Below, in pieces: positions 718 to 19,675 of a DNA stretch of 64,000 nt. The DNA is from Bacteroidota bacterium (GTDB lineage: Bacteria; Bacteroidota; Bacteroidia; Chitinophagales; LD1): positions 62,001-126,000 of the forward strand of contig JAFDYN010000020.1 in NCBI GenBank assembly GCA_018267385.1, read 5' to 3'. The position numbers and the translations under genes were made by a program. Every line of letters begins with the position of its first letter. The stretch's first letter is position 1. Under the pieces are notes generated by a model. It was given only the letters and a program-made list of their open reading frames with translations, was not told the DNA's origin and did no database searches.

Positions 718-825
718 TTTGTTTGTTTTTTAATGGTTGAGAAATGTATGTTTGATAGTGCAAAGGTCAGTAGAAGTATAGCCTCACTTCTTACAAAAAG
801 TAAAGCATGAATTACTAAAATCAAA

Positions 826-1527: not shown

Positions 1528-1542
1528 TTAAATTTGATAGCA

Positions 1543-1571: not shown

Positions 1572-1602
1572 GTAACAGAAAACAAAGGAATGATTACAGA
1601 AA

Positions 1603-3746: not shown

Positions 3747-3883
3747 AGTGAGGAGGTGTTTTATTTGACGTAAAAGAATAGACAAAACCGAAAGTAGCAA
3801 AGTGTTTATTCTTTATGTAGTGCCAATATATTTACTGTAATTCCATTTATAGGATTTTTCTTTGTGGAAATATGATTTGAAAT

Positions 3884-4980: not shown

Positions 4981-5115
4981 TCATGTCTCCCAAGAATTAC
5001 TGTATTATCATATTATCAGATTCAAAGCACAAAGTCTATGGAATTAAATTTCTTTTGTAATATCAAATACATATTATCTTTAAGTGTCTTAACTGATTCA
5101 ACTAATACCCATCCT

Positions 5116-6378
5116 ATGTACAGAGCAATCTTTTATTTGCTAATTAATACCTGCCCGCTTTTTAATGCCACTCCTTTAGCAGCACAAGTAAGTGTTCCTG
5201 AAAATGTCAGTAGCGAAGTTTTTTCGATATACAAGAACATTCACCAAAACCCCGAGCTTGGAAAAAAGGAATACAAAACGTCAAAGTTGGTGAAAGACAA
5301 ACTTACGGAGTTTGGTTATACGGACTTCTTTACTGTCAATTCATTGCCGACTGCAGTTGTTGCGATTTTAGATACTAAGCGCGAAGGCGCAGTTATTGCG
5401 CTGAGGTCTGAGTTAGACGGCAGGCCTGGACATGAGAAAACTAATCTTGAATACGCTTCCAAAGATTCAGCAACTATGCACAGTTGCGGTCATGACGCGC
5501 ACACCTCATGTCTGCTCGGAGCTGCAAAGCTCCTGATGCAACACAAATCGGAACTAAAGGGTAAAATTATTTTTATTTTTCAACCGGCGGAGGAAACTCC
5601 TGGGGGCGCAGATGATATTGTCAACGAGGGTGTTCTGAAAAAATTGGGCATTCAAAAAATGTTCACATTGCATTCAGTGGATGGTTTGGCCGTAGGAAGC
5701 GTGACCATTGAATCAGGTTATTTTCTTGCAGGGAGCAATTATTTCACTATTAACATGAACGGTACAGGCTCACATGCAGCAGCCCCATATTTAGGAAATG
5801 ACATCCCCGTAGTTTGCTCAAAACTGGTGACTGAATTAACTTCTTTTCCAAGCCGTAATACGGATGTGAGCATGAGGCCATGCGTTATAAGTGTTGCTTA
5901 TATTGCAACCGGCGATATTAAAGCATCTAATGTATTGCCTGACAATGCCACCATCAAAGGAACGATACGCGCTTATGACCCAATAGATTCCGCTTATGAC
6001 GGACAGCCTTCGCTTCGAAATCTAATCAACAGCAAGGTAGATAGATTCGCAAAGGACTATCAGGTTACTTGTAATACTACCATTACGACAGGTTCACCAT
6101 CCACTTATAATGACCCTGATCTTTTCAATACAGTTACACCCAAACTCAAATCCATATTTTCAGGCAATGTCATTGCTGATAATTATAGAGGCCTGTTTTC
6201 AGAGGACTTTTCTTATTACACCAAAGAAGTTCCCTGCCTTTATTTCGGCTTAGGTATTCAAAAAGATAATCTTGGCAACCAAAACATTCATACAAACTTA
6301 TTTTCAGTCCACCCTGATGCTTTTAAATATGGCATTGAGTTGTATTGTGATTTAGCGTTTATCAGTAATAAAAAATAA
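5116..6378 (+). CDS. Secreted M20-family amidohydrolase/metallopeptidase
   Basis: The frame opens at 5038, but the ATG at 5116 begins a proper signal peptide (MYRAIFYLLINTCPLFNATPLAAQ), so this start is chosen (420 residues). Family motifs are in order: ALRSELDG, MHSCGHDAHTS (metal-binding Cys/His and catalytic Asp), FQPAEETPGGADD (Glu pair), a His in LHSVDG, SHAAAPY in the dimerisation domain, and SEDFSYY near the end. These match hippurate/N-acyl-amino-acid hydrolases, which cleave amide bonds with two metal ions. The signal peptide suggests periplasmic action on acylated amino acids or peptides. It stands alone. Confidence 0.88.
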   Translation: MYRAIFYLLINTCPLFNATPLAAQVSVPENVSSEVFSIYKNIHQNPELGKKEYKTSKLVKDKLTEFGYTDFFTVNSLPTAVVAILDTKREGAVIALRSELDGRPGHEKTNLEYASKDSATMHSCGHDAHTSCLLGAAKLLMQHKSELKGKIIFIFQPAEETPGGADDIVNEGVLKKLGIQKMFTLHSVDGLAVGSVTIESGYFLAGSNYFTINMNGTGSHAAAPYLGNDIPVVCSKLVTELTSFPSRNTDVSMRPCVISVAYIATGDIKASNVLPDNATIKGTIRAYDPIDSAYDGQPSLRNLINSKVDRFAKDYQVTCNTTITTGSPSTYNDPDLFNTVTPKLKSIFSGNVIADNYRGLFSEDFSYYTKEVPCLYFGLGIQKDNLGNQNIHTNLFSVHPDAFKYGIELYCDLAFISNKK

Positions 6379-6412
6379 CCTTTAATAATCGTTCACCCTA
6401 AAATTATAATCT

Positions 6413-6970
6413 ATGGAAGGAGTCATCGTTGAATACGAAAGACACGTCCCGCAATCACTTATTGAAGATTTCAATAAGACCTCAAAATTAAATGCTCAAC
6501 TCCATTCGGCGAAAGATGTTGAACACTTCAACGACACAGGGCAAATCGCAGCCGATGTCACATTGATACTTTCCAATCCATATGTTCAAAACGTAATTGG
6601 TAGCGCTCTTTTCGCAGGTATCGTATTTTTGTTTAAAGGCCTCAGAAAGCTTTATAAAAATGCTGAGGAGCAACCATCCATAGATATACAGATCAAAACA
6701 CGCAAGTTTCAAGCAACGCTGACTATAGAGGGTAACATGTCTGATAGTCAGTTGGACAAATGTGTTGATGCGCTAAAGGAAGTCATACGCGAAGATAACC
6801 TGCAAAGAATATCCGAAAATCCTGACTTCGATAACCAGGAACAGGATGTCCCTGAAATATTTTTTGATTATATTATAGAAGATGATCAATGGAAGCCTTA
6901 TAACTTCGAAGATGAGGACGACGACTTTTGGGATGAGGCAGAGGATCGCGCCAAAAGAAAGCTTGATTAA
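6413..6970 (+). CDS. Hypothetical protein with one membrane segment and acidic tail
   Basis: A 185-residue protein I do not recognise. A hydrophobic helix (about 62-78, VIGSALFAGIVFLFKGL) follows a soluble N-terminal part. After that comes a mixed alpha/beta segment and a very acidic C-terminus (FEDEDDDFWDEAEDRAKRK). It starts 34 bp after the amidohydrolase and is followed at 56 bp and 24 bp by two more unknown genes on the same strand, the last also a membrane protein. The three may be one operon with an envelope or sensing role. No catalytic motif is seen. Confidence 0.55.
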   Translation: MEGVIVEYERHVPQSLIEDFNKTSKLNAQLHSAKDVEHFNDTGQIAADVTLILSNPYVQNVIGSALFAGIVFLFKGLRKLYKNAEEQPSIDIQIKTRKFQATLTIEGNMSDSQLDKCVDALKEVIREDNLQRISENPDFDNQEQDVPEIFFDYIIEDDQWKPYNFEDEDDDFWDEAEDRAKRKLD

Positions 6971-7026
6971 TTTTCATAAGATATAATTTGGCAATCAAAT
7001 ACTTATAACACTATTTCAATAAAGCC

Positions 7027-7731
7027 ATGACTATGATAAAAATAGGAGACAAAGATAAGTTACTAAATACGCGGATTGAGCTGAATGTGCGTAAGCAATT
7101 AGTCAAGTACATTGTCAATTTGGCTAATCCTAGTATACCAATCCGAGAGGCAAAAGCAGGTGAACAGCCTGACTATGTTAACGGGGAAGATTTTTTTGAT
7201 ATACAAATTGAGTTTCCTCAATCGAAACAATTCTTTTCTCAAGGTAGCTTATTTCTGCAAACTGCTATTCGAAAAGGACTTACTAATCTAAACGAACAAA
7301 TTGAAGATTGGAGCAATGAAATGTTTAGTGAAGAACAAAGACAAAAAATTCAAGAATACATTAACGTTTTTCGCCTGAAAATCGGCAGTTACTTAAAGCC
7401 TTCTGTTGGGCAAAAATTTGAAATTGCAGGATTCCCCGAAGGAGTCATCATTAATTTACATCAAGACCCCTACATCGCTAATGAAGACAAATTTTTAGGT
7501 AACAAAGCATCACTAAAGGAAGCATTTGCCAGCGTGAGCGCAGATTGGGGAAAATTTATACTCCATGAAAGTATAATGAGTGAGCCATATCAATTAAAAG
7601 ACACAAAGATTTACATCAATGATAGTATTCTGATCTTGAAAACTAATGACCCTTCTCAATGGAATTCTAAACGCGTTGAAAAGGATGTAGACGATATTCG
7701 AAAATACATGTCCTCGATATTCAAAAAGTAA
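7027..7731 (+). CDS. Hypothetical soluble protein, 234 residues
   Basis: I do not recognise this protein. It has no signal peptide or membrane helix and is rich in charged helices. One segment (about 85-130) is strongly helical with Glu, Gln and Lys, possibly a coiled coil. No nucleotide-binding or catalytic motif is visible. It lies between two membrane-associated unknowns with short spacers (56 bp before, 24 bp after), so co-transcription is likely. Two ATGs (7027, 7033) could serve as start. Confidence 0.55.
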   Translation: MTMIKIGDKDKLLNTRIELNVRKQLVKYIVNLANPSIPIREAKAGEQPDYVNGEDFFDIQIEFPQSKQFFSQGSLFLQTAIRKGLTNLNEQIEDWSNEMFSEEQRQKIQEYINVFRLKIGSYLKPSVGQKFEIAGFPEGVIINLHQDPYIANEDKFLGNKASLKEAFASVSADWGKFILHESIMSEPYQLKDTKIYINDSILILKTNDPSQWNSKRVEKDVDDIRKYMSSIFKK

Positions 7732-7755
7732 GATAACCCTCAACCTTAAAGAAAT

Positions 7756-8196
7756 ATGACACAGGAGGAACTAGAAGCGCTACCAGGTTACTGGCGGGGA
7801 CGGTATGAAGAAGCGAACCTTAAAAAGAGTGAGGAAGCAGAAGCTTTGAAAGTTATTCTCTATCCTTCACTTGTACTTCTCGCTTTATTGGTTGTATGCA
7901 TATTACTTAGGGACCATCCTTTTGAAAGAGATATATTAAGCCTTATTACCCTTTTCTATGCTTTTGGCTTAGGCGTAAAAGCATTTACAAGATCAAGACT
8001 GATCGGAGGGGTTATAGGATTTTTGGCAATAGTCCTATTGTTGGTCGCAAGGGCAGATATAACGTATAACTGGATAGCGTCTAAAATTAATCTTGTAGTA
8101 GACAAAAAATTGGAAATAGAACATTCCTCGACTACAGGCGAGAATGCTGATTCATCAAACGCCATCACTATAAAGGATACTTCACGGAGCAAATGA
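7756..8196 (+). CDS. Hypothetical membrane protein, 146 residues
   Basis: The N-terminal 30 residues are hydrophilic and begin MTQEELEALPGYW. Then come about three hydrophobic helices between residues 33 and 103 (VILYPSLVLLALLVVCILL, then LSLITLFYAFGLGVKAF, then IGGVIGFLAIVLLLVA), and a polar Ser/Thr-rich tail. This is an inner-membrane protein of unknown role. It is the last gene of the three-gene unknown group. A protein-like frame without its own start overlaps its 3' end (see the entry at 8174), so the group may once have been longer. Confidence 0.55.
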   Translation: MTQEELEALPGYWRGRYEEANLKKSEEAEALKVILYPSLVLLALLVVCILLRDHPFERDILSLITLFYAFGLGVKAFTRSRLIGGVIGFLAIVLLLVARADITYNWIASKINLVVDKKLEIEHSSTTGENADSSNAITIKDTSRSK

Positions 8197-8300
8197 ACAA
8201 ATCGAAGAATGTGAATATGTTATTCACAAAATAGAGCGGGAACTTGATTTAGATGAAAGCCGGTTGAGATTGAAGATCTTGAATGAAATCGACTCACCCT
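8174..8300 (+). pseudogene. Orphan protein-like reading frame, possible gene remnant
   Basis: From 8174 a stop-free frame without ATG reads GANEQIEECEYVIHKIERE followed by LDLDESRLRLKILNEID. This looks like a genuine charged helical protein rather than random translation. It overlaps the end of the membrane-protein gene in another frame and runs into the opposite-strand gene ending at 8305. It may be the leftover of a longer gene cut by deletion. Evidence is residue composition only. Confidence 0.25.
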
Positions 8301-8304
8301 CTTA

Positions 8305-9405
8305 TCAAATATCCTTTCCCATCAAATTGCCGAGTAGTTCGATTTTTGATGTTTCTTCATGGCCATCAATATAATGTATAAGTCCCTGATTGAATCCCAA
8401 AGACTTTTCAATCAACCCGAGAAATAATGCTAAGTTCTCAGATTGGATATCCAATAAATTGAACATCAGTTCTAGAATATCGTCATGAGAACTACTGTTG
8501 ATATATTTAAAGAATTTTCCAGTTAATCCTATAATAACGTCCGACGCTTGAATTAGTTTGTCAGCTTTGGATTCAAAAAAACTGTAGTTGGTAATCTTTT
8601 GCCCTTTGTATAGTAAAGGCATATCGACTAGCAGTTGTTGAATTTCAGTTTCATTATCAAAAAAATGATCAGAGTGCAAAAACAAATAAATGGGGCGAGC
8701 GTATAATTGCATAAATCCCTGTATCAATATATAGTCGTCTTCATCAGTAATAAAAGGAAGGGAATCTTTGTTTGCGGCTTCTCTCAAGAGAGATTCTAAC
8801 ATTTTAATACCACCGCCAATTTTTTCTGTCTTGTAAGGTTCAAGTATTTCGACCAATTCATTCACAAAATCCTTAACTGACGCTTTCGGAACATTCGGAT
8901 ATGTATATTTTACGAACAAAGGAACAATGGCATCAATGCTCATTTTGCAAGCGATATACAGAGCATTTTTCAATGAAGGCGCATAGTGCATTATGCTGCT
9001 TGGGATCGCTGAGTCCACAATATCGACAATTGAGTAGTACAAGAGATTGAGCGAAGATATATGTAGATAAAGCGGCTTGGCATGAACATTTGTTAAGAAT
9101 GTTCTGAGTTCCTGGGATTTCAAGCAATCAGTAAACTCACCAAAAGCGATATGCTTAAGCTTTACTTCCACAACATTAGGCTGTAAAGGAATCCCATCAA
9201 AAATGTCTTCGACATTGGGCTTTTGACCACTAAACGCAAAACCACCTAAAACGAAGTTGGCCGTGTAATCAACATTGAAATTCCCTTTCTTGAGGTGTAG
9301 CTTTTTAATGTTATTGGTTTCGTCGTAATAAAGTGTTAGAGGCGCATTTATATCGACATGCGGGTGCATGATCTGCATTGCTTCTCTCATTTCAGATGTT
9401 TCCAT
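8305..9405 (-). CDS. DUF3800-like protein (predicted RNase H-fold)
   Basis: The frame opens with TTG at 9444; the ATG at 9405 (METSEMREAMQ) is preferred, giving 366 residues. LTLYYDETNNI near the N-terminus and ADKLIQASDVIIGLTGKF near the C-terminus match the two acidic signatures of DUF3800 proteins (iDESG near the start, IQlADlvag near the end). These proteins are thought to adopt an RNase H-like nuclease fold and often occur in mobile or defence regions. The match is by eye. It is transcribed away from the small-protein/caspase pair on its right. The biological role is unknown. Confidence 0.55.
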   Translation of the reverse strand: METSEMREAMQIMHPHVDINAPLTLYYDETNNIKKLHLKKGNFNVDYTANFVLGGFAFSGQKPNVEDIFDGIPLQPNVVEVKLKHIAFGEFTDCLKSQELRTFLTNVHAKPLYLHISSLNLLYYSIVDIVDSAIPSSIMHYAPSLKNALYIACKMSIDAIVPLFVKYTYPNVPKASVKDFVNELVEILEPYKTEKIGGGIKMLESLLREAANKDSLPFITDEDDYILIQGFMQLYARPIYLFLHSDHFFDNETEIQQLLVDMPLLYKGQKITNYSFFESKADKLIQASDVIIGLTGKFFKYINSSSHDDILELMFNLLDIQSENLALFLGLIEKSLGFNQGLIHYIDGHEETSKIELLGNLMGKDI

Positions 9406-9640
9406 GATATCCTTTGTTGTAACTGCTTTTACCCTAGAAGCCAATGATTCCTATTAAATATGGCGTGGGGGGACTCAGTATAATGAATAATTATTCTTTC
9501 TCTTTGCGCACATAATCAAGCCATTATATTCCTGTGGAAATATTTTACCATGTGCATGCAACTGTGCATAAAAAGGTTTAGTCTACAAGCTTTAGGCAAA
9601 AATAGATTGCCTCTATAAACGTTAACTAAATAAATATAAA

Positions 9641-9892
9641 ATGACTAAGTATAAATTCGTGAGAAAATTAGCAAAAAGCCTGACTAATTCGGGACGAACC
9701 CTTAATGGTAACGAATTAGCCCGATTGCTTAATAGAGTCGGATATAAAACAAACTACGGGACACCATTTGCAGGTGCAAGAGGTGTTTATAAACTTATAA
9801 GTGCTACATGGCATCGCCAAGGTAAGGGAAAAGATGCCGAAATGATTGCGCATGCTTATACAGACCAGTACGGTAATTTTGCATGGAATTAG
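9641..9892 (+). CDS. Small basic protein paired with caspase-like gene
   Basis: An 83-residue basic protein. The segment GNELARLLNRVGYKTNYGTPF resembles the winged-helix or recombinase-type pattern (A..LN..G..T..G), suggesting nucleic-acid or protein binding, but the family is not recognised. The gene ends 18 bp before the caspase-like gene, so the two are almost surely co-transcribed and may act together. The small protein could be a regulator or adaptor for the protease. That relationship is inferred from the spacing. Confidence 0.55.
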   Translation: MTKYKFVRKLAKSLTNSGRTLNGNELARLLNRVGYKTNYGTPFAGARGVYKLISATWHRQGKGKDAEMIAHAYTDQYGNFAWN

Positions 9893-9910
9893 ATTTGAAA
9901 AATATTATTC

Positions 9911-10717
9911 ATGACAGCGAAACATTTGAAAAGAAAGGCGATCATATTAGGCAGTCCATATCCTCAGGATTCAAAATACCATTTACGTGGCGTTGCACAG
10001 GATGTTGTAAATTTTAGAAAATTCCTGATGTCTTCAGCCGGTGGTGCTTGGAAGCGCGGTGAAATTCATCATGGCACTCACATCAAGAGTTCCGTCGTGC
10101 ATACGATACAGCGTCTGTGCAAAGATGTGGACATAGCCGTGATTTTTTATAGTGGGCACGGCTTTATGCGTGGTGGAGAGAATTATATCAATATCAATCC
10201 ACGAGAGAGCCTAAATGTTGAACATCTTTATACGAGGGCGAAACGTCAAACTACATTAGTTGATGCTTGCCGCACGGACTATTCTTATGAGCACTTAGAA
10301 GGTATCGGTGACATTGGAATGTATTTCGACAATACGAGACCTGATTTGGGTAGAGCATTATTCGATTACTATTTGGAACGTAGCCCCGAGGAAAACTTTA
10401 CGATGTTTTCGTCGTCTGAGAATCAACCGTCCCAGGACACAGAGAATGGCGGCTTGTTTACTTACTCTTTGCTCAATAAGGTAAGCGATTGGACTTTAAG
10501 GACTGATAAACTTTGTTTACCGGCGCATGTGGCGTTTACGCACGTAGAACGAGAACTTAATCAAAGATTCGTGGAGCAAGAGCCGACGTATCATTACAGT
10601 GGTGATATAATCCCAACGATTCCGTTTGGTGTATCTCCGAGATCGTATTTGCGCAATTACCTTGGTCAGAATGATAGAGTTAAATCGCGTGGAATGACGA
10701 TAAGAACTTTGTCTTAA
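9911..10717 (+). CDS. Caspase-like cysteine protease (peptidase C14 family)
   Basis: A 268-residue protein. AIILGSPYPQDSKYHLRGVAQD begins the p20-like fold. The catalytic His lies in IAVIFYSGHGF and the catalytic Cys in TTLVDACRTD, the typical spacing and context of bacterial caspase/metacaspase domains. A later block FTMFSSSENQPS...GGLFTYSLL matches the substrate-loop region. There is no signal peptide, so it is cytoplasmic. Bacterial caspase-like proteases often serve abortive-infection or regulated proteolysis roles. Here the only partner is the small basic protein 18 bp upstream. There is no sensor domain in the same chain, so the trigger must come from elsewhere. Confidence 0.85.
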   Translation: MTAKHLKRKAIILGSPYPQDSKYHLRGVAQDVVNFRKFLMSSAGGAWKRGEIHHGTHIKSSVVHTIQRLCKDVDIAVIFYSGHGFMRGGENYININPRESLNVEHLYTRAKRQTTLVDACRTDYSYEHLEGIGDIGMYFDNTRPDLGRALFDYYLERSPEENFTMFSSSENQPSQDTENGGLFTYSLLNKVSDWTLRTDKLCLPAHVAFTHVERELNQRFVEQEPTYHYSGDIIPTIPFGVSPRSYLRNYLGQNDRVKSRGMTIRTLS

Positions 10718-11057
10718 ATGAGCAGATGTTGGGCGTTTCCCGCATAGGCGGGTCGCGCTTTACGCTGCAATCTTTTCACACATTATCATTACGAGAAAAG
10801 GATTTACGCTGCAATCGCTAACGCGGCTGGTGAAAAAGAAATGGCAACGTAGTGAATTTGGCTAAGCCTTTTTCTTATAAATCTCCCAATAGATTTTATT
10901 AAAGAAGCTGTCCGCTTCAAGCATGTTTGCCAAACCAAGCTGAACAATTATTTCTTTTATCCCTTTCATGACAGGCTGTAATATGATTGTGAAGTTTAAA
11001 TATACATTCCTTGGGCTAACATTTCCTATTTACCGGTGAGAATGATGAATAAAAGAA
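10718..11057. other. Spacer after the caspase gene with a short direct repeat
   Basis: No full-length gene is seen. TTTACGCTGCAATC occurs at 10759-10772 and again at 10803-10816. The rest is AT-rich. A 35-codon frame is listed separately. Confidence 0.4.
10862..10969 (-). CDS. Possible 35-residue small protein or gene remnant
   Basis: The minus-strand frame from ATG at 10969 to TAG reads MKGIKEIIVQLGLANMLEAD and ends IYKKKA. It has good amphipathic-helix character and may be a real small protein or the end of a degraded gene. It lies alone between the caspase gene and the T9SS gene. Nothing but its sequence supports it. Confidence 0.3.
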   Translation of the reverse strand: MKGIKEIIVQLGLANMLEADSFFNKIYWEIYKKKA

Positions 11058-11084
11058 AAGCCGAATAGGTGTACTATTCGGCTT
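11058..11084 (-). terminator. Rho-independent terminator of the T9SS cargo gene
   Basis: An 11-bp perfect stem (AAGCCGAATAG / CTATTCGGCTT) with a 5-base loop. On the minus strand the stem is followed by a T-rich run (TTCTTTTATT). It sits 22 bp past the stop of the minus-strand gene at 11107. Confidence 0.85.
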
Positions 11085-11106
11085 ATAATCTTTAAAGCAG
11101 TGGGTA

Positions 11107-12087
11107 TTATTGAATGACTATTTTACGACTGCTTTTATACTTTCCCATATTGAGTGATAGAAAATATAGCCCTGCGGGGGCATTAAGTTCTATTTCCGAG
11201 GATTTGCTACTTAGCAAGGCTGTTTGGATAATGTCTCCAACAATGTTAGACACTACAAGAATAGAAGGGCTTTGAGGCCTTTCTGATAAAGTCAAGTTGA
11301 ACTTGCCGTTTGATGGATTTGGATATATCTCCAAAGATACCCCGCCTTCCCTCTCGGCTATACCCGTATTAGGGTTGTGGTAGGTGAGCGTATCGGATGA
11401 AACAGCACCGCACTGATTGGAAATTACTGCATAGTAAGAACTGTCTGATACAAGCGGGTGAAGAAAAGAAGGGGTTGCACCTGTTACTGGTGTGCCATTC
11501 AGATTATACCACTGTAAACCCCAATAGGTCGGGGCAAAAAGAGTATCGTTGCTTATAGTAATACTGAAAGGCGATGGAGCGCCAATCGCTACGATATTTG
11601 ACGCGCGGTATTCAACCGAACTCCATTTGCCGTTGTTGTCTTGCATCTGATAGTAAATTTTCTTATTGCCGACCGTGCTTTGGCAAAAGTCAATGATCAG
11701 CGTGGTATCAACTGCCAGTTTTGGGTTGGGGAAGGTCAAAACCCTCATATCGGATGGATAAGAACTTGAAACATCCGTCCAGTAGCGAATTGAAGTTAGC
11801 TTATACGTTGCATTAGCATCAGGAACGTTTATTGAGCGATACACGATAGAACTCCAATGGCCTTGCGCGTCCTGTGTGCGTAAATACAATAAATGATTTC
11901 CGGCAGTTAAGGAGGAGACATTCAACGGGGCATTATTAAGCGACATGATAGGTGCAGGAATTATAGGAACGGTTATCCTGCTTGCTGTAGCAGTATCAAA
12001 CCAATATTGGTAAGACACCATATTACTTTGACCAAGGGCAATGAAACAAATCAACATTGCCAAGGCAGTTAGTGAAATATTTTTCAT
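11107..12087 (-). CDS. Secreted protein with T9SS type A sorting domain
   Basis: A 326-residue protein with signal peptide MKNISLTALAMLICFIALGQS. Its middle has beta-rich repeats resembling extracellular Ig-like modules (HLLYLRTQDAQGHWSSIVYRS and a similar KIYYQMQDNNGKWSSVEYRAS). The last 75 residues (LEIYPNPSNGKFNLTL ... GLYFLSLNMGKY) are a textbook type IX secretion C-terminal domain, which directs export across the outer membrane. It begins 20 bp after the beta-helix gene, so the two likely form one operon of surface or released proteins. Its ligand is unknown. Confidence 0.88.
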   Translation of the reverse strand: MKNISLTALAMLICFIALGQSNMVSYQYWFDTATASRITVPIIPAPIMSLNNAPLNVSSLTAGNHLLYLRTQDAQGHWSSIVYRSINVPDANATYKLTSIRYWTDVSSSYPSDMRVLTFPNPKLAVDTTLIIDFCQSTVGNKKIYYQMQDNNGKWSSVEYRASNIVAIGAPSPFSITISNDTLFAPTYWGLQWYNLNGTPVTGATPSFLHPLVSDSSYYAVISNQCGAVSSDTLTYHNPNTGIAEREGGVSLEIYPNPSNGKFNLTLSERPQSPSILVVSNIVGDIIQTALLSSKSSEIELNAPAGLYFLSLNMGKYKSSRKIVIQ

Positions 12088-12107
12088 GGATAGCTTTTAT
12101 AGATTGA

Positions 12108-13220
12108 TTAATAAGTCTGAGCTGCCGCTTTTAATGATATATTCAACATGCCGTTGACAGAGTTAGCAGGCACAATAAGCTCTCTCCAATGCGGATTAAA
12201 AGGAACGACGCCTTCTTTCCAGTATGTATTGGGATTTCCACCGAATAGCCCGACCTCACCCGCCGTTGTCGACATTGTTCTATAGGTTAAATAGTTAGAT
12301 CCTTGAGGATTTAAGTGATAATTCGCTTCAAAGTCAAATTGCGTGTAAGGATTATTTGTTGGAGGAGATAGTAACACATCACTTAATATGTTATTGGTTA
12401 AGTCTGTGCTATTATGAACTGCACTTCCCCCCCACGTGAGTGTTCCACCTGATCCAAGGACAAAAAGGTTGTTATAAAAGCGACTTGCTTCGCTAATAAT
12501 CGTTACCCCTGTTGATGGATAAAGAAAAATATTGTCACGATATAGTACATTTGTAGAGTTGGAAGCACCTGTTATACCTGTGTTCAGAAATAGGCAATTT
12601 GCAAAAGTGGTGCTCTGATTACCTTCAGGAACACCAAAACCGAGTACGGAACCAGTGACGGTTACATTTTGGACATCCTTAATATCTAGTACAGATTGGA
12701 AGTAGCAGTTTTGAATGGTGAAGTTGCTTGATGTATTTTGTACGTTGACCCCAAGAATGAGATCTTCGTCAAATTCGCACCTTACGAATTTTAGACCGGA
12801 TACATTTTGATTGGCGGCTGTGCTGCCAACGCTGAATACACTTCCACCAAAGGTTATACCGTGAAATTCCGCATTGTTAGCGCCATTGACAACGTAAAGC
12901 GGGTGGCTTCCTGAAAAAATAATTTTGGTCAGATTTGCGCCATATACGCTCACACTGTCGGGATGAATACCGGTCCCTATCAAAACTATGCCAGTGCTGA
13001 GAGTGACGGGATTATTGCACTGAAATGTTACACCGGGCAAATAAACCGTATCACCGTTGCTGCATGCGTTAAACACGGATTGTAGCCATGTATCGCCGTA
13101 AGGCTGCACTCCATAGTGAAATATTGTTTGTCCATTGTGTTGCCTTGCAATGACATCTTGTGCTTTGGTATTTATGAGCAGGGCGAACATAAAAACCACA
13201 CTTAAAAACTGCTTTTTCAT
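12108..13220 (-). CDS. Secreted right-handed parallel beta-helix protein
   Basis: A 370-residue protein with signal peptide MKKQFLSVVFMFALLINTKA. It is followed by many short strands with Asn-rich turns (NAEFHGITFGG, SNFTIQNCYFQS, VQNVTVTGSVLGF) typical of pectate-lyase-like or choice-of-anchor beta-helix repeats. No catalytic residues can be assigned. Unlike its downstream neighbour it has no clear T9SS C-terminal domain. Its start lies about 100 bp from the divergent XRE regulator, with a palindrome in between, so that regulator might also affect it. It may bind or process polysaccharide. Confidence 0.7.
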   Translation of the reverse strand: MKKQFLSVVFMFALLINTKAQDVIARQHNGQTIFHYGVQPYGDTWLQSVFNACSNGDTVYLPGVTFQCNNPVTLSTGIVLIGTGIHPDSVSVYGANLTKIIFSGSHPLYVVNGANNAEFHGITFGGSVFSVGSTAANQNVSGLKFVRCEFDEDLILGVNVQNTSSNFTIQNCYFQSVLDIKDVQNVTVTGSVLGFGVPEGNQSTTFANCLFLNTGITGASNSTNVLYRDNIFLYPSTGVTIISEASRFYNNLFVLGSGGTLTWGGSAVHNSTDLTNNILSDVLLSPPTNNPYTQFDFEANYHLNPQGSNYLTYRTMSTTAGEVGLFGGNPNTYWKEGVVPFNPHWRELIVPANSVNGMLNISLKAAAQTY

Positions 13221-13270
13221 TGTAGAGATTTATAAGTTATTGAATGATGTAAAAGTATTTATTTTTTTGA

Positions 13271-13292
13271 AACTAATCCGAAAGGATTAGTT
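13271..13292. promoter_or_regulatory. 22-bp palindrome, likely operator of the XRE regulator
   Basis: AACTAATCC, four bases GAAA, then GGATTAGTT: perfect 9-bp arms. It lies 31 bp upstream of the XRE regulator ATG and about 50 bp upstream of the divergent beta-helix gene. A dyad here fits autoregulation by a dimeric helix-turn-helix protein. It is not followed by a T-run on either strand in a position that would terminate a gene. Confidence 0.6.
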
Positions 13293-13323
13293 CTTTTAGC
13301 GTTTCTTAGCATAGTATTGGTTG

Positions 13324-13557
13324 ATGCCACTCAGCCAACAGCAGAAACGCGATCTGAAAAAATTAGGTGCAAGAATTAAAGAATTGCGCAAGGCAAAGGG
13401 CATGACCCAAAACGAACTCGCGAATGCCGTTGACATGGATTATCAAAATATTTCGCGCTTAGAAAGAGGTGAGAAAAATGCCGTTTATCTTACAATTAAG
13501 GAAATCGCTCGGGGACTAGGTGTTTCAATGGCAGAACTTTTAGAAGGATTGGACTAA
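13324..13557 (+). CDS. Small XRE-family helix-turn-helix regulator
   Basis: A 77-residue protein consisting almost only of an HTH_3 domain: ARIKELRKAKGMTQNELANAVDM, then YQNISRLERGEKN, then LGVSMAELLEGL. A TTG three bases earlier could also start it; ATG at 13324 is preferred. Its size resembles the controller proteins of restriction-modification systems and phage-type repressors. It is the first gene of the enzyme cluster that follows, with 45 bp to the next start, and has a palindrome upstream. It probably times expression of this cluster and of itself. Confidence 0.88.
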   Translation: MPLSQQQKRDLKKLGARIKELRKAKGMTQNELANAVDMDYQNISRLERGEKNAVYLTIKEIARGLGVSMAELLEGLD

Positions 13558-13602
13558 GTTCCCCATAGTAATATCGTATATTGTGTCAATAAATTACACC
13601 TC

Positions 13603-14280
13603 ATGTCACATGTTGAACGATTTGGCGCACTTGTCCCAAGTTCCAATACGACGGTTGAGGATGAATTGGCACAATACCTTAGACTCCCATCGTCTGAATC
13701 GGTAAGATTTCATATTGGCCGCTTAGATTACAACACACGAATAAGCGTTTCGTATCAGGATTATTGTCAAGAAATATGTGCAAAGGTTGTGCCTGCCATG
13801 ACAACGCTTGAAAAGGTAAAGGATATACGCAGTATCGGTTTCTTTTGTACCACCTGTTCCTTATACTTGAGTGATCCCCTGTTTTCATCAATTGATAATC
13901 CAATATCTGCCATTGCAAAAACTTGTTTTGCAAGTGGAATTGTTTCGCCATTGGTTATTACTCCTTATACGGATGAAATTACAAGCAGAATACTCAGTAA
14001 ACTGCCATTCCACTCAATTGTATCATCTGTTAATATAAATAAATTGACAGCCAGTGAACTCGGTGGGATGAATCTTGATACCTTATTGGAGATTACCAAA
14101 AATAATTTTGATCACACTAAGCATGATTCTACAATTATTCTATGTACAAACCTTCCGAGTTTACATCTTGCGAAAGTGATAAGATATTTTACTAGTAAAC
14201 CTTTTATTTCTAGTAATCTTGCAATGATCAGCGCAATGCAGAATATCGCTATTGATCGTATTATTGAACAAATGCCATGA
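13603..14280 (+). CDS. Maleate-isomerase/Asp-Glu-racemase superfamily protein
   Basis: A 225-residue protein. The N-terminal FGALVPSSNTTVEDE is the signature of the maleate cis-trans isomerase/arylmalonate decarboxylase branch. This branch uses a Cys from each of two similar half-domains. The first candidate Cys is in GFFCTTCSLY (about residue 80), the second in IILCTNLPSL (about residue 185). A GRLDYNT motif at about residue 40 also fits. Known relatives isomerise or racemise small dicarboxylates. The stop overlaps the next start by 4 bp (ATGA), so translation is probably coupled to the kinase-fusion gene, suggesting it makes or alters a small precursor for that pathway. Confidence 0.75.
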   Translation: MSHVERFGALVPSSNTTVEDELAQYLRLPSSESVRFHIGRLDYNTRISVSYQDYCQEICAKVVPAMTTLEKVKDIRSIGFFCTTCSLYLSDPLFSSIDNPISAIAKTCFASGIVSPLVITPYTDEITSRILSKLPFHSIVSSVNINKLTASELGGMNLDTLLEITKNNFDHTKHDSTIILCTNLPSLHLAKVIRYFTSKPFISSNLAMISAMQNIAIDRIIEQMP

Positions 14281-15590
14281 CTGTAGCTATGAATATTTCA
14301 GATATACTGTTTCCTAGTCCCGAGGACTTTAAAAAAATTGTTTTGACGATGGCCTCGTCAGACTTAGTGAAAGATCACGTTGCCCGAAATCACGATAATA
14401 ACCGTTGGTGGCCTACGAGTGTTTCAGATTGGCGTGTGAGGATGTTGGTAGCCGGTGTTAGCACTCGCGTATCTTACGCAATGGTGAATACCTATGCCCG
14501 AGTGGTGGAGAAGTTGGATGCTCTTGGTTACGAGCGATTGAAGATTATTGACGATTCCGATTTCAAAGAAATTGTGAAGCCAATTGGCCTTTCTGATTCA
14601 AGGTTACAATTTAAAAAATCGCTCTTTGACTTTATTGAAGAAGTTACTTCCGGAGGTAGAAGCATTGATAGTTATTCATCTTCCGAATTGATTGCTCTTA
14701 TGGAGCAGAAGGTGGATGGTGCGGGCTATAAGGTTGCACAGTGCTGTGTCCTATATGCACGAGGATATTATTGTGGAATTATGCCTGTGGATAGCGGCAT
14801 GAAAGATAACTTGGGGTATTGCCTCGGATTTAATTATCCAAACAAATCTTTAGGTCACGAGGTTCTACGTAGTCAATTTGAACATTTGGTCAAGCAAATT
14901 GATTTTTCGCAGGAGGTAAAGATCTTAGGATATGATAAAACCTGTCAACTTCCGACAAGTAATTATAGTTGGTGGGTGCATTTGGTGTTAATCTATTACA
15001 AACGCTTTTACTGTAATAAGTGTAATCCTGAAACTTGCCTTGTTTATCAAAATAGGGAGTTGAAGATTGGCTCAATGTGCCGTGAGGGTGCTCCTCGAAA
15101 GGGCGGGACTAAGAATGTTATTATAGAAGGAGTTGATGGTGTTGGTAAGTCCACATTGGGTAAGCGATTAAAGGAAATGGGGTTCACCTATAAGCACTTT
15201 GAATACAATCGTGAGGCGACAGATTTATATGCGATATATAAGGACTTTCTTTTAGCAAACAATAATAAAAAAATTGCCTTTGACAGGTCGTTTATCTCTG
15301 AATATGTGTATGGTCATGCGCTTCGGGGTTCTTCAAGGATAAGTAAGGAACAATTACTTGAGTTGATTAGCCTGGGTGGAGATACAAAAGTTATCATTAT
15401 GACTGACACCAAAGAAAATATCCTTAGCAGGGAGATTGAGCCACAGGATATAAAGATGATTACAGAAAATTATGAAGTCCTTAATGACGGCTTTCTTGAT
15501 CTTTATAATGATCTGAAGGAGACCATTGACATTTCTATAGCATCATTTGACGAAGTTAGATACCAATTAGAAAATAACTTCCTGACGTGA
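14277..15590 (+). CDS. Fusion of HhH-GPD-like helical domain and thymidylate-kinase-like P-loop kinase
   Basis: A 437-residue protein. Residues about 1-275 are helical and resemble the HhH-GPD DNA-glycosylase fold: a LVAGVSTRVSYAMVN start, FKEIVKPIGLSD, GAGYKVAQCCVLYARG, then PVDSGMKDNL with an Asp (172) at the place of the catalytic Asp. A Cys-rich loop YCNKCNPETC follows near residues 245-256. Residues about 280-437 hold a P-loop kinase: EGVDGVGKST (Walker A about 285-293) and IAFDRSFISEYVY, as in thymidylate kinases. This helical-plus-kinase combination is the one predicted for phage 5-hydroxymethyldeoxyuridine DNA kinases and related thymine-hypermodification enzymes. It overlaps genes on both sides by 4 bp. 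Confidence 0.7.
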   Translation: MTVAMNISDILFPSPEDFKKIVLTMASSDLVKDHVARNHDNNRWWPTSVSDWRVRMLVAGVSTRVSYAMVNTYARVVEKLDALGYERLKIIDDSDFKEIVKPIGLSDSRLQFKKSLFDFIEEVTSGGRSIDSYSSSELIALMEQKVDGAGYKVAQCCVLYARGYYCGIMPVDSGMKDNLGYCLGFNYPNKSLGHEVLRSQFEHLVKQIDFSQEVKILGYDKTCQLPTSNYSWWVHLVLIYYKRFYCNKCNPETCLVYQNRELKIGSMCREGAPRKGGTKNVIIEGVDGVGKSTLGKRLKEMGFTYKHFEYNREATDLYAIYKDFLLANNNKKIAFDRSFISEYVYGHALRGSSRISKEQLLELISLGGDTKVIIMTDTKENILSREIEPQDIKMITENYEVLNDGFLDLYNDLKETIDISIASFDEVRYQLENNFLT

Positions 15591-16402
15591 ATAAATCTAT
15601 AGCCTTTATTGGTAATGCCTCAATCGATGAAATTACTACTGCCAGAGGAAAGTTTACATCGTATGGTGGAAGTGCCGTCAATTCCAGTTTAGCGGCTAGT
15701 CTTTTGACTGATGAATCTATTTATCTGACAACAGCATTTGGCTACGATTATCCAACTCACAAGTTTGACAGTTTAAAGGGGATTTCACTTGAGTTTTCGC
15801 GTATTGACGAGATGGCATCCAATAGATTTCTTATCAATGAAGTTGATGACACGCTTAGTTTTGTTAATGAAAAATATTTAGACATCATTTTAAACAAACA
15901 GCTTATAGCCGGTCATGTCCATTTGTCTTGCAGAAAAGGGGTAAATCCCATCCAACTGCTTTCAGCTTTGCATTTTGATTCCCTTTCCATTGATGTGATG
16001 AAATTTAGTTTGACAACGATGTGGGAAGACATAGTAACTCTCGCGAAAAAAGCGACTGTTTGTTTTTGTAATCGTGAAGAATATCAAACGCTAATGGAGC
16101 AGCGCGAACAAATGAAATCACTAACCTTCATCGTTACGCACAGGGATGGCGTTGATATTTTTTCCGGCGACTCAGAAATCAACGTTGCCTTGAAATCGGT
16201 TCCTGAAATAGATTTTCAAAGCACAACAGGAGCCGGTGATACATTTTTGGGAGGGTTTTTGGCATCCTACACAAGGTATGGCGATCTGCATAAGGCAGCT
16301 TTGAGTGGACAAGTTGTTGCGAAATATAGCCTTGCAGCTTTTGGAAATTGGCACCTTTACCACATGAAAGACGAGATTTTAAAAGAAATAAATAAGCAGT
16401 AA
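15587..16402 (+). CDS. PfkB-family sugar/nucleoside kinase
   Basis: A 271-residue protein starting with GTG inside a GTGA overlap with the previous stop. PfkB signatures: AFIGNASIDEI at the N-terminus, the sugar-binding YGGSAVNSSLAASL, NREEY in the middle, and the catalytic STTGAGDTFLGGFLASY with its Asp near residue 218. Members phosphorylate hydroxyl groups of sugars, nucleosides or related small molecules. Together with a P-loop kinase on each side, it gives three kinases in a row. The context favours a nucleoside or sugar intermediate rather than central metabolism, but the substrate is not shown. Confidence 0.85.
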   Translation: MNKSIAFIGNASIDEITTARGKFTSYGGSAVNSSLAASLLTDESIYLTTAFGYDYPTHKFDSLKGISLEFSRIDEMASNRFLINEVDDTLSFVNEKYLDIILNKQLIAGHVHLSCRKGVNPIQLLSALHFDSLSIDVMKFSLTTMWEDIVTLAKKATVCFCNREEYQTLMEQREQMKSLTFIVTHRDGVDIFSGDSEINVALKSVPEIDFQSTTGAGDTFLGGFLASYTRYGDLHKAALSGQVVAKYSLAAFGNWHLYHMKDEILKEINKQ

Positions 16403-16403
16403 G

Positions 16404-17219
16404 ATGTTGCCCCATGTAACTTTTATATTGGGAAATTCATGTTCAGGTAAGTCATCTCTTGTGGCTGAAATTCGGAAGTGGGATTCAGATATTATTGTGT
16501 TTGATGACTATTCGGTTCTAAAGGAAATATTTGAACTTGATAACCGTATTAGAACGAGCACACAAAGCGAACTTATTGAAAGGTTGAATGACCTGCGCAT
16601 GAATACAGTTTTTATTACAGATAGGATAGAGGCTATCGTAGATGCATTCATTCAGGGCAGGTTAACGCAAAGCGAATATGCGTTTCAATCACTTAGAAAT
16701 ACGGATGCATCGCATAATATTTTGGATTTGAATGTATGGCATGAAGTCCTAGAAATCCTATTGTCAAAAGCTAGTGATAATGAAGCACACTATATTTTTG
16801 AATTCGCAAGGGGTGACGCTGAAAATTACTTAAAACACAATGAGATAGGACCAGGTGAATCATATACTTATCATTTGTTGCGCCTTATTAAATCTGGTGT
16901 CAATTTATCTTCATGCGGTATTGTATATATTAAGTCTGATCTTGAATCGCGCATAAACCGCAGTATTAGTAGAAAGGCTAAGGGGGGCCATTATCTTTCA
17001 CCTGAAATCATGAAAGCTGTTTACAAATCAGATTCATTTCTGAACCAAATTGAGTATCGCGGTGATGCCGCTTTTTTAGATGTGGAAGACTTGTCTATTC
17101 CTGTATTTGTGGTTGATAATTCCGAAGATATACCTGAGGAATCCATATCAAATAAATTCGATGTCTTAATTCAACCAATTCAGGATTACTTTTCTAAGCA
17201 TTCAGCACTTCGCCCCTAA
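16404..17219 (+). CDS. P-loop NTPase, probable small-molecule kinase
   Basis: A 271-residue protein. Walker A is FILGNSCSGKSSL (residues about 7-19). An acidic strand end IIVFDDYS follows and could serve as the catalytic or Mg-binding segment. A lid-like basic stretch is SRINRSISRKAKGG. The pattern is that of adenylate/nucleotide-kinase-like or zeta-toxin-like kinases, but no specific family is recognised. It starts 1 bp after the PfkB stop, so it is clearly in the same operon. Its last 26 bases overlap the 3' end of the convergent radical SAM gene. It may be a second phosphorylation step. Confidence 0.7.
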   Translation: MLPHVTFILGNSCSGKSSLVAEIRKWDSDIIVFDDYSVLKEIFELDNRIRTSTQSELIERLNDLRMNTVFITDRIEAIVDAFIQGRLTQSEYAFQSLRNTDASHNILDLNVWHEVLEILLSKASDNEAHYIFEFARGDAENYLKHNEIGPGESYTYHLLRLIKSGVNLSSCGIVYIKSDLESRINRSISRKAKGGHYLSPEIMKAVYKSDSFLNQIEYRGDAAFLDVEDLSIPVFVVDNSEDIPEESISNKFDVLIQPIQDYFSKHSALRP

Positions 17220-18735
17220 GCAGCCTATAGCCTAAATTCTCGGTGATTTTAACATCGTACGAATTGTAAGGGATCAATTCTTTACCCTGTACCTCAACCC
17301 GTATAGGACAAGTGCCAAGTGTTCTTAAATAACTGTTTCCACCTTTGACAACGACTTCACGCATATCCCTTATAATGGTCGGCTCGTTTAAATACAGTTT
17401 TTGCTGCATAGGAAGAACATAGCTATCTGTAATGTCCTTGAAGCACTGGTCGTAGTTAGAGTAACTGGTATCATTCTTTTCAAAAGAAACGCCTGTTGGC
17501 CTCGTCATATTTCGGTAGTAAAGCCTTTGAGTTTGCCAACCATTATTGAGAATGGTTTCGAGATGCTTCAAATTTATTTCATGTGTTTTTTCGTTGTGAC
17601 CATTGAGGTTATGAATCAAATTGACACCCGGTAAAAGTTTAGGATTTCCATCCGCTCCTTTTTCCTGACCGTATTTATTAATAATCTCGATTGCCCTAAG
17701 CACCTCCTCAGGAGTGCCAGTAACGCGATTTTGTTTTCTAACCTCTCTATCGAAAGATTCAATGCCAAATGGGGTTATGTTGCCCGATGTGCAGTATTTA
17801 ACTATCAGTTGAGTGATCTCAATCCCTTGCTGACTTAAAACGTTTATCATGTTCACGTTATCAACATGAAGTGTTTCAATATCGGGACATGAAGCGCGTA
17901 TGCCGTAAAGTAAGGCCTCCATCTTTGAAACGTCTTGCTTATGGAAGTGGTAGAAATTGGGTTGACGGCCAAGTCTAAAGTGCCTCACGCCTTGCCGATA
18001 TAAAGTTGCAACTTGCTTTATAATATCCTCAGGCTCCCTATATGTAACCTTTGGAGACCTTACCGATTCAATACAGAAGGTGCATGTTGGTGTGTTACAC
18101 CCTGTTCCCGTTTCGATTTCAGCGATAATAGGATAACGCAGTTGATTGATGATTGGAGCATCGCATTCACTGATTTTTGCCAAAAGGCCGTAATTCGGCT
18201 TTAGTAAATCAGTGACCTTATCAAGGCTTATGTCTGTTGCAGCCGCCTTTTCTAGAACATAGCGATAAGTATTACCATGTTCATACTCTGTTAAAATGGG
18301 TTTCAGCTTAGATTTTTGAAATTCGTCTGATATACCATCCTTGGTGCCCATGACATAGAACAAAATCTTCTTTGCCTGGGTATCTTTTAAATATTCATAT
18401 ACTTCATCACTTTCAGGAGGTACGCTTGAAAAGTACTGGTAATTCACAAAACAGCCCATGATCAGATATATTGTATCGGCAGCTTGAAGAATCTCCTTAG
18501 CGTTTTCGGCGTTACGCGTTCTATTTAAGATGTGTAAATTTGTATTTGAACCGTCGGACTTGAAATTACCGCTTGAATACCTCAAATCTTCAATTGTCAA
18601 ATAAGTATGTGGTATCTTCAAATACTCCAACGCCTGAGACAGATGGATTTGATGGGTACCCATATACGGCCTTACACCATACCCTGAAGGTTCATCCGTA
18701 TAACAATCGACAATAACAGTTTTGTAAGCGTTCAT
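17194..18735 (-). CDS. Radical SAM enzyme resembling COG1031 (archaeal-type)
   Basis: A 513-residue protein. The N-terminal VDCYTDEPSGYGVRPYMGTH matches the opening of the uncharacterised archaeal COG1031 radical SAM family. The iron-sulfur cluster motif is GTGCNTPTCTFC with Cys 213, 218 and 221. That is CX4CX2C rather than the usual CX3CX2C, so the loop has one extra residue. After it comes RLGRQPNFYHF, a typical SAM-barrel segment, and TPFGIESFD. It converges on the kinase operon (26-bp overlap) and diverges from the thymidylate-synthase-like gene with only 15 bp between the two starts. It would do radical chemistry on an unknown substrate, possibly the modified base or a precursor. Confidence 0.75.
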   Translation of the reverse strand: MNAYKTVIVDCYTDEPSGYGVRPYMGTHQIHLSQALEYLKIPHTYLTIEDLRYSSGNFKSDGSNTNLHILNRTRNAENAKEILQAADTIYLIMGCFVNYQYFSSVPPESDEVYEYLKDTQAKKILFYVMGTKDGISDEFQKSKLKPILTEYEHGNTYRYVLEKAAATDISLDKVTDLLKPNYGLLAKISECDAPIINQLRYPIIAEIETGTGCNTPTCTFCIESVRSPKVTYREPEDIIKQVATLYRQGVRHFRLGRQPNFYHFHKQDVSKMEALLYGIRASCPDIETLHVDNVNMINVLSQQGIEITQLIVKYCTSGNITPFGIESFDREVRKQNRVTGTPEEVLRAIEIINKYGQEKGADGNPKLLPGVNLIHNLNGHNEKTHEINLKHLETILNNGWQTQRLYYRNMTRPTGVSFEKNDTSYSNYDQCFKDITDSYVLPMQQKLYLNEPTIIRDMREVVVKGGNSYLRTLGTCPIRVEVQGKELIPYNSYDVKITENLGYRLLRGEVLNA

Positions 18736-18750
18736 ATACCCCCATTTAAT

Positions 18751-19476
18751 ATGATTTATATAAAAACAAACACGTCATCCGGTTCACAAATATTTGACCT
18801 AATTGAACAGCAGAAATCAAAATCCTTAGAAAACCTCCTGGTAGAGATAGAATGTAATTCATTAACGTTTCTGCCGGACAGATATGCTACTATCGCAGAA
18901 GTTTTTTTTAAACAAGTCCAACTTTTAATCGGGGATAGATGTGAAAAGTACCTGAATAGCTATATCAAATCTGTAAATATTGATAGATTTAAACTTAGCC
19001 CATACAGAAATAGCATCTGCCACGATTTAGCAGCTATTGCAGATAAAATGAATTCACGAACAGCGCTTCTTACTTTTCCATGTGAATCGCCTCATTCCGC
19101 AAGCACAAATTTAATTCATTTTTTAAACAACAGTGGCAGGTTAAATATGAACATTTACTCACGTTCAATTTATCTCGATTATTTAGCCAAAGATTTAGCC
19201 ACCTTTTATTTTTTGGGACAGTTGGTTGGCTATTCAGTCAAAATGAAATTTTCGCTTTTGCATTTTTTTATAGGGTCATTTGATAATACCGCAACCAATG
19301 TCTCAAAGTTGGTATCTCTGAATAAGCCGGTTCTCTTTAATGGTACTTTAAAGGACCAAGTAGATAGGGCAGAAGAAGCAATAAATGCTATAATTGAAGA
19401 TAAAGCCTTACAAAATGGGCATGATTATTTTTCTGAAATGGTTTTATTGGTTAGGTCTAAATCCGACCTGATTTAG
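18751..19476 (+). CDS. Thymidylate-synthase-like protein (possible nucleotide hydroxymethylase)
   Basis: A 241-residue protein, shorter than ordinary thymidylate synthase. SRTALLTFPCESPH (Cys 111) matches the catalytic PC segment. GRLNMNIYSRS matches the GKLSCQLYQRS phosphate-binding region (Arg 138). It is followed by the helix LATFYFLGQLVG. By hand alignment Asp 148 falls where thymidylate synthase has the pyrimidine-selecting Asn, the change known from cytosine hydroxymethylases. The usual GD.H.Y end is replaced by IGSFDNT. It is therefore a distant, perhaps respecialised member acting on a pyrimidine nucleotide. It is divergent from the radical SAM gene. The substrate is not proven. Confidence 0.65.
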   Translation: MIYIKTNTSSGSQIFDLIEQQKSKSLENLLVEIECNSLTFLPDRYATIAEVFFKQVQLLIGDRCEKYLNSYIKSVNIDRFKLSPYRNSICHDLAAIADKMNSRTALLTFPCESPHSASTNLIHFLNNSGRLNMNIYSRSIYLDYLAKDLATFYFLGQLVGYSVKMKFSLLHFFIGSFDNTATNVSKLVSLNKPVLFNGTLKDQVDRAEEAINAIIEDKALQNGHDYFSEMVLLVRSKSDLI

Positions 19477-19554
19477 TTATCAATCAGCTATTTGTACGGT
19501 AGTAAGCAGCCGAGATACATAGGGCTCACCGTGTGCAAATGGTGTGCAAATGGC
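19477..19554. other. Spacer with tandem 11-bp repeat
   Basis: GTGTGCAAATG occurs twice head to tail (19531-19541, 19542-19552), next to the tRNA terminator. This could be an integrase arm-type site, but no integrase gene is near. Confidence 0.4.
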
Positions 19555-19598
19555 AAAAAAAATGAGGCGTTTTAATTAAAAAGCGCCTCATTTTTTTT
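19555..19598 (-). terminator. Rho-independent terminator of tRNA-Arg
   Basis: The stem AAAAAAAATGAGGCG (19555-19569) pairs with CGCCTCATTTTTTTT (19584-19598) around an AT-rich 14-base loop. On the minus strand it lies just past the 3' end of the tRNA gene and ends in a T-run. On the plus strand it could also stop the thymidylate-synthase-like gene, so it may be bidirectional. Confidence 0.85.
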
Positions 19599-19601
19599 GT
19601 G

Positions 19602-19675
19602 TGCACCTGAAGGGAGTCGAACCCCTAACCTGTTGATCCGTAGTCAACTGCTCTATCCAGTTAAGCTACAGGTGC
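19602..19675 (-). tRNA. tRNA-Arg (anticodon ACG)
   Basis: All arms pair by hand: acceptor GCACCTG/CAGGTGC, D-stem GCTT/GAGC, anticodon stem GTTGA/TCAAC with loop CTACGGA (anticodon ACG), T-stem AGGGG/CCCTT with loop TTCGACT, discriminator A. The 3' CCA is not encoded. The gene lies exactly where base composition shifts from AT-rich to more balanced DNA. tRNA genes are common insertion points of mobile elements. Confidence 0.95.

Follow-up and report, generated by a model that had tools for sequence, protein, structure and literature searches.

The window, a 64,000-nucleotide stretch of a Bacteroidota genome of the order Chitinophagales (GenBank assembly GCA_018267385.1, contig JAFDYN010000020.1, positions 62,001 to 126,000), carries between its positions 13271 and 19476 a mobile enzyme cassette predicted from its genes to make and process a non-canonical nucleoside or nucleotide, probably a nucleoside antimetabolite. 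We give this interpretation a probability of roughly 45 %. In the literature searched, whose coverage was partial so that an earlier mention is possible, no description of the gene set or of parts of it was found, and the claim of the first-pass annotation that the locus is an undescribed combination of nucleoside or nucleotide type is sustained; the cluster is also conserved in actinobacteria.

The genes form a genuine cluster that did not come together by chance. When the two-domain cassette protein P0002, consisting of an HhH-GPD domain and a kinase, was compared with plasmids by tblastn, Streptomyces replicons matched at 41 % identity, and the neighbouring genes were orthologues of the remaining cluster. 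Scanned with the HhH alignment, 84,980 species genomes returned 31 further loci, all in Actinomycetota, although the scan used exact peptide patterns and possibly missed more distant members. Together with three plasmid loci these are the 34 actinobacterial loci examined. Five enzymes recur together in them: a radical S-adenosylmethionine (SAM) enzyme, a maleate-isomerase-like protein (MI), the HhH-GPD protein, a PfkB kinase and a thymidylate-kinase-like kinase (TMK). The order radical SAM-MI-HhH-PfkB-NDT-TMK-MazG is kept throughout, except in loci cut by contig ends and in a decayed copy in Streptomyces philanthi, with MazG on the opposite strand in five loci, and every HhH-encoding locus that is neither truncated nor decayed carries the remaining genes. 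Furthermore, the distances of all seven gene families correlate at 0.82–0.97, as expected if the seven genes travel together. The NDT protein (Pfam PF05014) has its DDGVCMEIG glutamate motif in 31 of 32 sequences, and a search with a strict pattern recovered the E-x2-E...E-x2-D motif of MazG (PF12643/PF03819) in 21 of 30. Compared with this actinobacterial form, the window has HhH and kinase fused, lacks NDT and MazG, and adds a second P-loop kinase-like protein (K2), the protein P0006 and an XRE regulator. Thus, of the seven-gene order first described for the window, five genes recur elsewhere in mostly fixed order, whereas the window arrangement itself differs. Within the same order as the window genome, the HhH family was found in none of 397 other genomes, six congeners included.

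The carriers include S. niveus, S. chattanoogensis and S. alboflavus. In many Streptomycetaceae loci the operon is flanked by an SDR gene and a conserved gene that resembles a regulator (by eye of HTH type, with no Pfam match), a pair which in one locus (L018) has moved jointly to the opposite side of the operon. Four Streptomyces copies directly adjoin a phage-type integrase and further copies lie on plasmids; beyond the integrase next to one such copy, a RAMA-domain protein (restriction/adenine-methylase associated) is encoded (L020:14409-15566). The S. philanthi cassette (L034) is decaying, with a truncated radical SAM gene and HhH, MI and NDT in fragments. A plasmid of Streptomyces sp. NBC_00829 (L005) carries truncated PfkB, NDT, TMK and MazG, while radical SAM, MI and HhH were not seen in the stretch read; this partial cassette could be a resistance-only remnant.

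In P0002 (14277–15590, plus strand), an N-terminal domain (residues ~13–262) is fused to a thymidylate-kinase-like P-loop kinase (residues ~279–437), the latter being encoded by its own gene in actinobacteria. Residues 1–262 have no Pfam match. An AlphaFold2 model of the domain, for which P0002 was aligned with 27 orthologues (28 sequences in all), reached a pLDDT of 87 and a pTM of 0.85; its six best Foldseek matches (E ≤ 0.001) are all HhH-GPD glycosylases, and so are the top VIA matches, namely MagIII (Z 15.3 over 201 residues, 3.5 Å) and EndoIII–DNA complexes (Z 14.6–15.1). According to the model, the domain therefore has an EndoIII/OGG-type HhH-GPD glycosylase fold. The description of P0002 as a helical domain joined to a thymidylate-kinase-like protein thus keeps the fusion and the P-loop kinase, but the helical domain is a glycosylase fold. 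Profile evidence points the same way: one orthologue matches PF00730 at E 4e-4, under the curated cut-off, and in an HHalign comparison with the EndoIII of the same genome (91 %, E 9e-7) K152 and D172 of the family fall on the catalytic Lys and Asp. D172 is present in 31 of 31 family members and K152 in 29, the other two having Asn.

The window domain shares 39–45 % identity with the actinobacterial HhH proteins, and over the Walker region the kinase half reaches up to 43 % with the kinase that actinobacteria encode on its own. Every member of the HhH family has the N-terminal motif NHDxNRWWP. Of the C-terminal cysteines at the EndoIII [4Fe-4S] position, C254 alone aligns in all members, with a C-x5-C-x5-C arrangement in actinobacteria and a different spacing in the window. 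On these sequence features the HhH proteins form a new HhH-GPD subfamily of predicted glycosylases, found only with this cassette. The GhG hairpin of HhH repair enzymes contacts DNA phosphates. This hairpin is degenerate in most of the family (position 148, the first Gly, is His in 4 of 31 members; the second Gly, at position 150, is replaced by Ser in 24 and by Ala in 1), which would fit a free nucleotide or otherwise altered substrate. Taking the hairpin together with the kinase fusion, we lean towards a nucleotide substrate, although the window protein itself retains GAG at this site.

The radical SAM protein P0005 (17194–18735, minus strand; 513 residues) matches Radical_SAM at E 1.4e-12, shares 30–34 % identity with its actinobacterial orthologues and 27.7 % over 99 % of its length with a Natronorubrum radical SAM protein, WP_006067939, which we take to be a COG1031 member by family recognition and not by a profile match. 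Its cluster motif is CX4CX2C, that of the actinobacterial orthologues CX5CX2C. The C-terminal HhH of the archaeal protein is missing from the window and actinobacterial proteins, and the archaeal gene adjoins a TRAM-domain gene. No relative of P0005 was found in 295 other Bacteroidota genomes. MI (P0001; 13603–14280, plus strand; 225 residues) matches EutA (TIGR02990, E 1e-4) and Amdase (E 0.005), and an actinobacterial orthologue matches Amdase PF17645 at E 1.3e-13; both CT motifs are retained (C82, C181) and residues C82, T83, C181, T182, N15 and N205 are invariant. These matches place MI in the Asp/Glu racemase superfamily, close to AMDase and EutA. The PfkB/ribokinase-family protein P0003 (15587–16402, plus strand; 271 residues; PfkB E 5.9e-14) has the GAGDT catalytic motif and orthologues in the actinobacterial operon. 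The assignments originally given to these proteins, namely a COG1031-like radical SAM enzyme (the COG1031 label by recognition), a maleate-isomerase-like enzyme and a PfkB kinase, all stand by profile, as does the P-loop assignment. The poorly defined K2 (P0004; 16404–17219, plus strand; 271 residues) has an AAA_33 match at E 0.01, below cut-off.

K2 resembles other kinases around Walker A only, has no orthologue in the actinobacterial operon and was found neither in 295 other Bacteroidota genomes nor in viral contigs. For P0006 (18751–19476, plus strand; 241 residues), whose membership in the cassette is uncertain, there is no Pfam, NCBIfam or PHROG match, and no convincing homologue was found. 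The first-pass annotation had read it as thymidylate-synthase-like, which would go with a role as a pyrimidine hydroxymethylase. Neither reading found confirmation: no thymidylate synthase profile matches, HHalign gives 0.1–0.5 %, and a single-sequence AlphaFold model has a pLDDT of 36. By eye P0006 resembles the Arg/Cys region of thymidylate synthase, a likeness unsupported by HHalign or the model, and the catalytic Cys position would then be Ser. Both P0006 and K2 may be passengers of the cassette. The same genome holds a second nucleotide-type group (L046, G000:C5 near 198947) with a NUDIX protein, a short thymidylate-synthase-like protein, a convergent MazG-like gene and an adjoining SDR-like open reading frame.

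All seven open reading frames originally reported are present, but the tight packing ascribed to them applies to a co-directional string of four genes, MI, HhH-kinase, PfkB and K2. These overlap by 4 bp at MI/HhH-kinase (14277–14280) and at HhH-kinase/PfkB (15587–15590), and PfkB and K2 are 1 bp apart (16403), whereas the XRE gene is separated from MI by 45 bp and the radical SAM gene is convergent with K2, with a 26-bp overlap. P0006 diverges from the latter gene across a gap of 15 bp (18735–18751), so at least one promoter would lie inside the other gene, or P0006 starts further in. Upstream, the expected XRE controller with a palindrome is borne out: the regulator (13321–13557, plus strand; 78 residues; TTG at 13321 with an in-frame ATG at 13324) matches HTH_3 at E 5.1e-14, and 31 bp 5' of its ATG lies a perfect 9-bp inverted repeat, AACTAATCC-GAAA-GGATTAGTT (13271–13292). 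At up to 3 mismatches the repeat has no further match in the window (0.04 in shuffles) and would be a likely operator. A generic sigma-70 promoter scan gave no signal above shuffles.

The cassette is located at the right end of a 50.6-kb integrative element (contig C11:30985-81624), of which window positions 1–19625 are the right part. The element is bounded by a 22-bp repeat, with one mismatch, of the 3' end of tRNA-Arg(acg) (19601–19675, minus strand), the left copy being at C11:30985, and its GC content is about 40 %, against 50–59 % outside. With a tyrosine integrase at the left end and a TrwC relaxase and coupling protein inside, it is probably mobilizable, and the cassette is absent from six congeners. 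The cargo of the element includes Lamassu LmuA/B/C (E 1e-109, 3e-155 and 8e-55), SIR2-TPR, a NucC-like nuclease and a GajA-like protein, furthermore the PADLOC candidate defence family PDC-S51 (8305–9444, minus strand; E 1e-117, with a weak DUF3800 match) and a solitary caspase-fold (Peptidase C14) protein (9911–10717, plus strand).

How might these enzymes act together? Our mechanism is built on the composition, order, conservation, folds, catalytic motifs and mobility of the genes, from which we infer substrate and direction. In it, the radical SAM enzyme and the racemase/decarboxylase-like MI would jointly make an unusual base or sugar, and the PfkB and thymidylate-kinase-like enzymes would phosphorylate the product at the nucleoside and nucleotide level. 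In actinobacteria, MazG would then hydrolyse the triphosphate of the unusual nucleotide and the NDT-family enzyme would cleave the N-glycosidic bond of the monophosphate, while the HhH-GPD enzyme may attack the glycosidic bond of the nucleotide itself or, so as to excise a misincorporated analogue, that in DNA. The XRE regulators would gate expression. The fusion in the window suggests that HhH and kinase act on the same compound. We read MazG, NDT and HhH-GPD as clean-up enzymes for pool and DNA: their classes target phosphate or glycosidic bonds in unusual nucleotides, MazG in triphosphates, NDT in mononucleotides and HhH-GPD in DNA or the nucleotide. By contrast, the radical SAM enzyme, MI and the two kinases look biosynthetic. 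We take DNPH1 to be a member of the NDT superfamily. That enzyme hydrolyses 5-hydroxymethyldeoxyuridine (5-hmdU) monophosphate and so keeps it out of DNA (PMC10603095, PMC10483697, PMC12751057), and the DNA glycosylases AlkZ and YtkR2 confer self-resistance on producers (PMC9040887, PMC8626424). In the experimentally proven 4'-thiothymidine cluster, a radical SAM enzyme and a nucleoside kinase are accompanied by a nucleotide triphosphatase giving self-resistance (PMC12691670). It is this cluster logic, together with glycosylases as producer resistance, that makes an antimetabolite or non-canonical nucleotide our best reading. The three classes (radical SAM, kinase, triphosphate hydrolase) are complete in the actinobacterial form; the window form lacks the hydrolase.

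Several points weigh against this interpretation. The cassette is not accompanied by any conserved gene for a transporter, a ligase or a tailoring enzyme; its window version lacks both NDT and MazG, the most evident clean-up enzymes, although a MazG-like protein is encoded elsewhere in the genome; the element bears several anti-phage systems, which would suit a defence role; the catalytic lysine of the HhH proteins is replaced in the two Asn-bearing members; and the antimetabolite pathway does not explain the role of MI. A bolder version, which we consider unlikely, is that a DNA-glycosylase fold was recruited for small-molecule biosynthesis. The HhH-GPD enzyme, with a nucleotide kinase fused to it or encoded nearby, would make or break a glycosidic bond in a free nucleotide, and a radical SAM/racemase-like pair would make the resulting new class of non-canonical nucleoside, with interphylum spread on integrative elements.

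The proposal that the set makes a modified pyrimidine, either in DNA or as a free nucleoside, survives in its second half, the free product now being the leading reading, but the phage-type thymine system on which it drew is not supported. Kinase, radical SAM and a possible thymidylate-synthase-like protein are the same broad enzyme classes as in that system; compared with families built from phage M6 relatives (ADDT, HMUDK_hel from M6 gp055, HMUDK, radical SAM and thymidylate synthase), however, the kinship fails for HMUDK_hel, ADDT and radical SAM. HMUDK_hel (PF18723) and ADDT (PF18724) have no Pfam match in the seven cassette proteins and each score 0.2 % against the HhH family in HHalign, and we rejected homology of the HhH domain to either. 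The radical SAM family scores 0.6 % against its M6 counterpart, a superfamily relation only, and the kinase matches the phage 5-hmdU kinase profile at 94.6 % but over just 43 columns around Walker A, with no PF18748 match. Four scans of viral contigs with the cassette proteins gave no HhH relative and one weak partial radical SAM match, and tblastn of P0002 over phages gave generic matches confined to the kinase domain; a phage origin of the cassette was rejected on these scans. Phage-type thymine hypermodification is thus very improbable. A DNA base modification of unrelated sequence, in which the HhH protein flips the base for modification by the fused kinase or the radical SAM enzyme, and kinases and MazG shape the pool, is unlikely, though several observations speak for it: HhH-GPD is a base-flipping fold and the best VIA matches include EndoIII–DNA complexes; a helical domain of DNA-binding type joined to a P-loop kinase recalls the architecture of 5-hmdU DNA kinases; the COG1031 relative from archaea bears a C-terminal HhH of its own; and M6-like phages combine thymidylate-synthase-like, kinase and radical SAM genes (PMC9476957). 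Yet it must contend with the failed profile comparisons and the degenerate hairpin, with the lack of a pyrimidine hydroxymethylase in the actinobacterial form and of a confirmed one in the window, and with the lack of a conserved neighbouring restriction partner, and it leaves NDT and the racemase-like enzymes without an evident role.

That the cassette salvages or degrades an unusual nucleoside, or modifies RNA or a cofactor, seems rather unlikely to us. Here kinases and NDT would take up and break down the compound, and radical SAM and MI would dismantle base or sugar, all of them, with PfkB, being typical catabolic or salvage classes except the radical SAM enzyme, whose archaeal relative, with its nucleic-acid-binding-type C-terminal HhH and TRAM-domain neighbour, would suit an RNA role. 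Against this, conserved genes for transport or sugar-phosphate catabolism are lacking, two kinases plus MazG fit catabolism poorly, and the cassette is rare and mobile. Anti-phage defence is quite unlikely, despite the defence cargo of the element and the precedent of the glycosylase Brig1 (PMC11078745). In this scheme the glycosylase would excise modified bases, NDT and MazG would destroy nucleotides, or a chain-terminating nucleotide would be made upon infection. PADLOC matches of P0002 (E 1e-5 to 2e-4) fall mainly on the P-loop, P0001 has one weak Csn2 match (E 0.008) and P0003–P0006 have none; by these results the cassette does not match described defence proteins. Moreover, no defence genes were obvious among the annotated Streptomyces plasmid neighbourhoods examined, and five biosynthetic-type enzymes exceed the need.

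If the antimetabolite pathway is correct, the cassette would represent a new type of nucleoside or nucleotide pathway that is testable in culturable Streptomyces, would provide a bacterial gene context for COG1031-type radical SAM chemistry, and would add an HhH-GPD subfamily whose substrate is possibly a nucleotide instead of DNA. Antibiotics and antivirals include nucleoside analogues, and clean-up enzymes within the cassette would be a pointer to the toxic product. Should the cassette modify DNA instead, this would be a novel type of modification that has no relation to the thymine systems of phages.

Among known systems, the M6-type phage cassette (HMUDK, HMUDK_hel, ADDT, radical SAM and pyrimidine hydroxymethylase) likewise has a P-loop kinase, a radical SAM enzyme and a helical domain with a kinase, but its helical domain and radical SAM enzyme show no homology to ours; the present cassette has HhH-GPD, MI and PfkB and was not found in phages. 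Archaeal COG1031 proteins differ in their CX3CX2C motif, against CX4-5CX2C here, and in their C-terminal HhH. With EndoIII, MagIII and OGG-type glycosylases the HhH proteins share the fold (Z 15), the catalytic Asp in all members and the Lys in nearly all (29/31), and they depart from them in the NHDxNRWWP motif, the degenerate GhG, the altered C-terminal cysteines and, in the window, the kinase fusion. Brig1 is similarly a glycosylase in a defence-rich context, yet it resembles uracil-DNA glycosylases rather than HhH-GPD enzymes and came to light as one gene that protects by itself (PMC11078745). The actinobacterial NDT and MazG proteins resemble DNPH1/NDT and MazG house-cleaning enzymes in family (PF05014, PF12643/PF03819) and catalytic motifs, but sit within a seven-gene biosynthetic-type operon and are missing from the window form. 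Finally, although thmA-thmB-thmC of Photorhabdus lacks HhH-GPD, MI, PfkB and NDT and is likened to our cassette by enzyme class and not by sequence, both, in our case the actinobacterial form, set a radical SAM enzyme beside a nucleoside kinase and an enzyme for hydrolysis of nucleotide triphosphates, in a small cassette found in varying neighbourhoods (PMC12691670).

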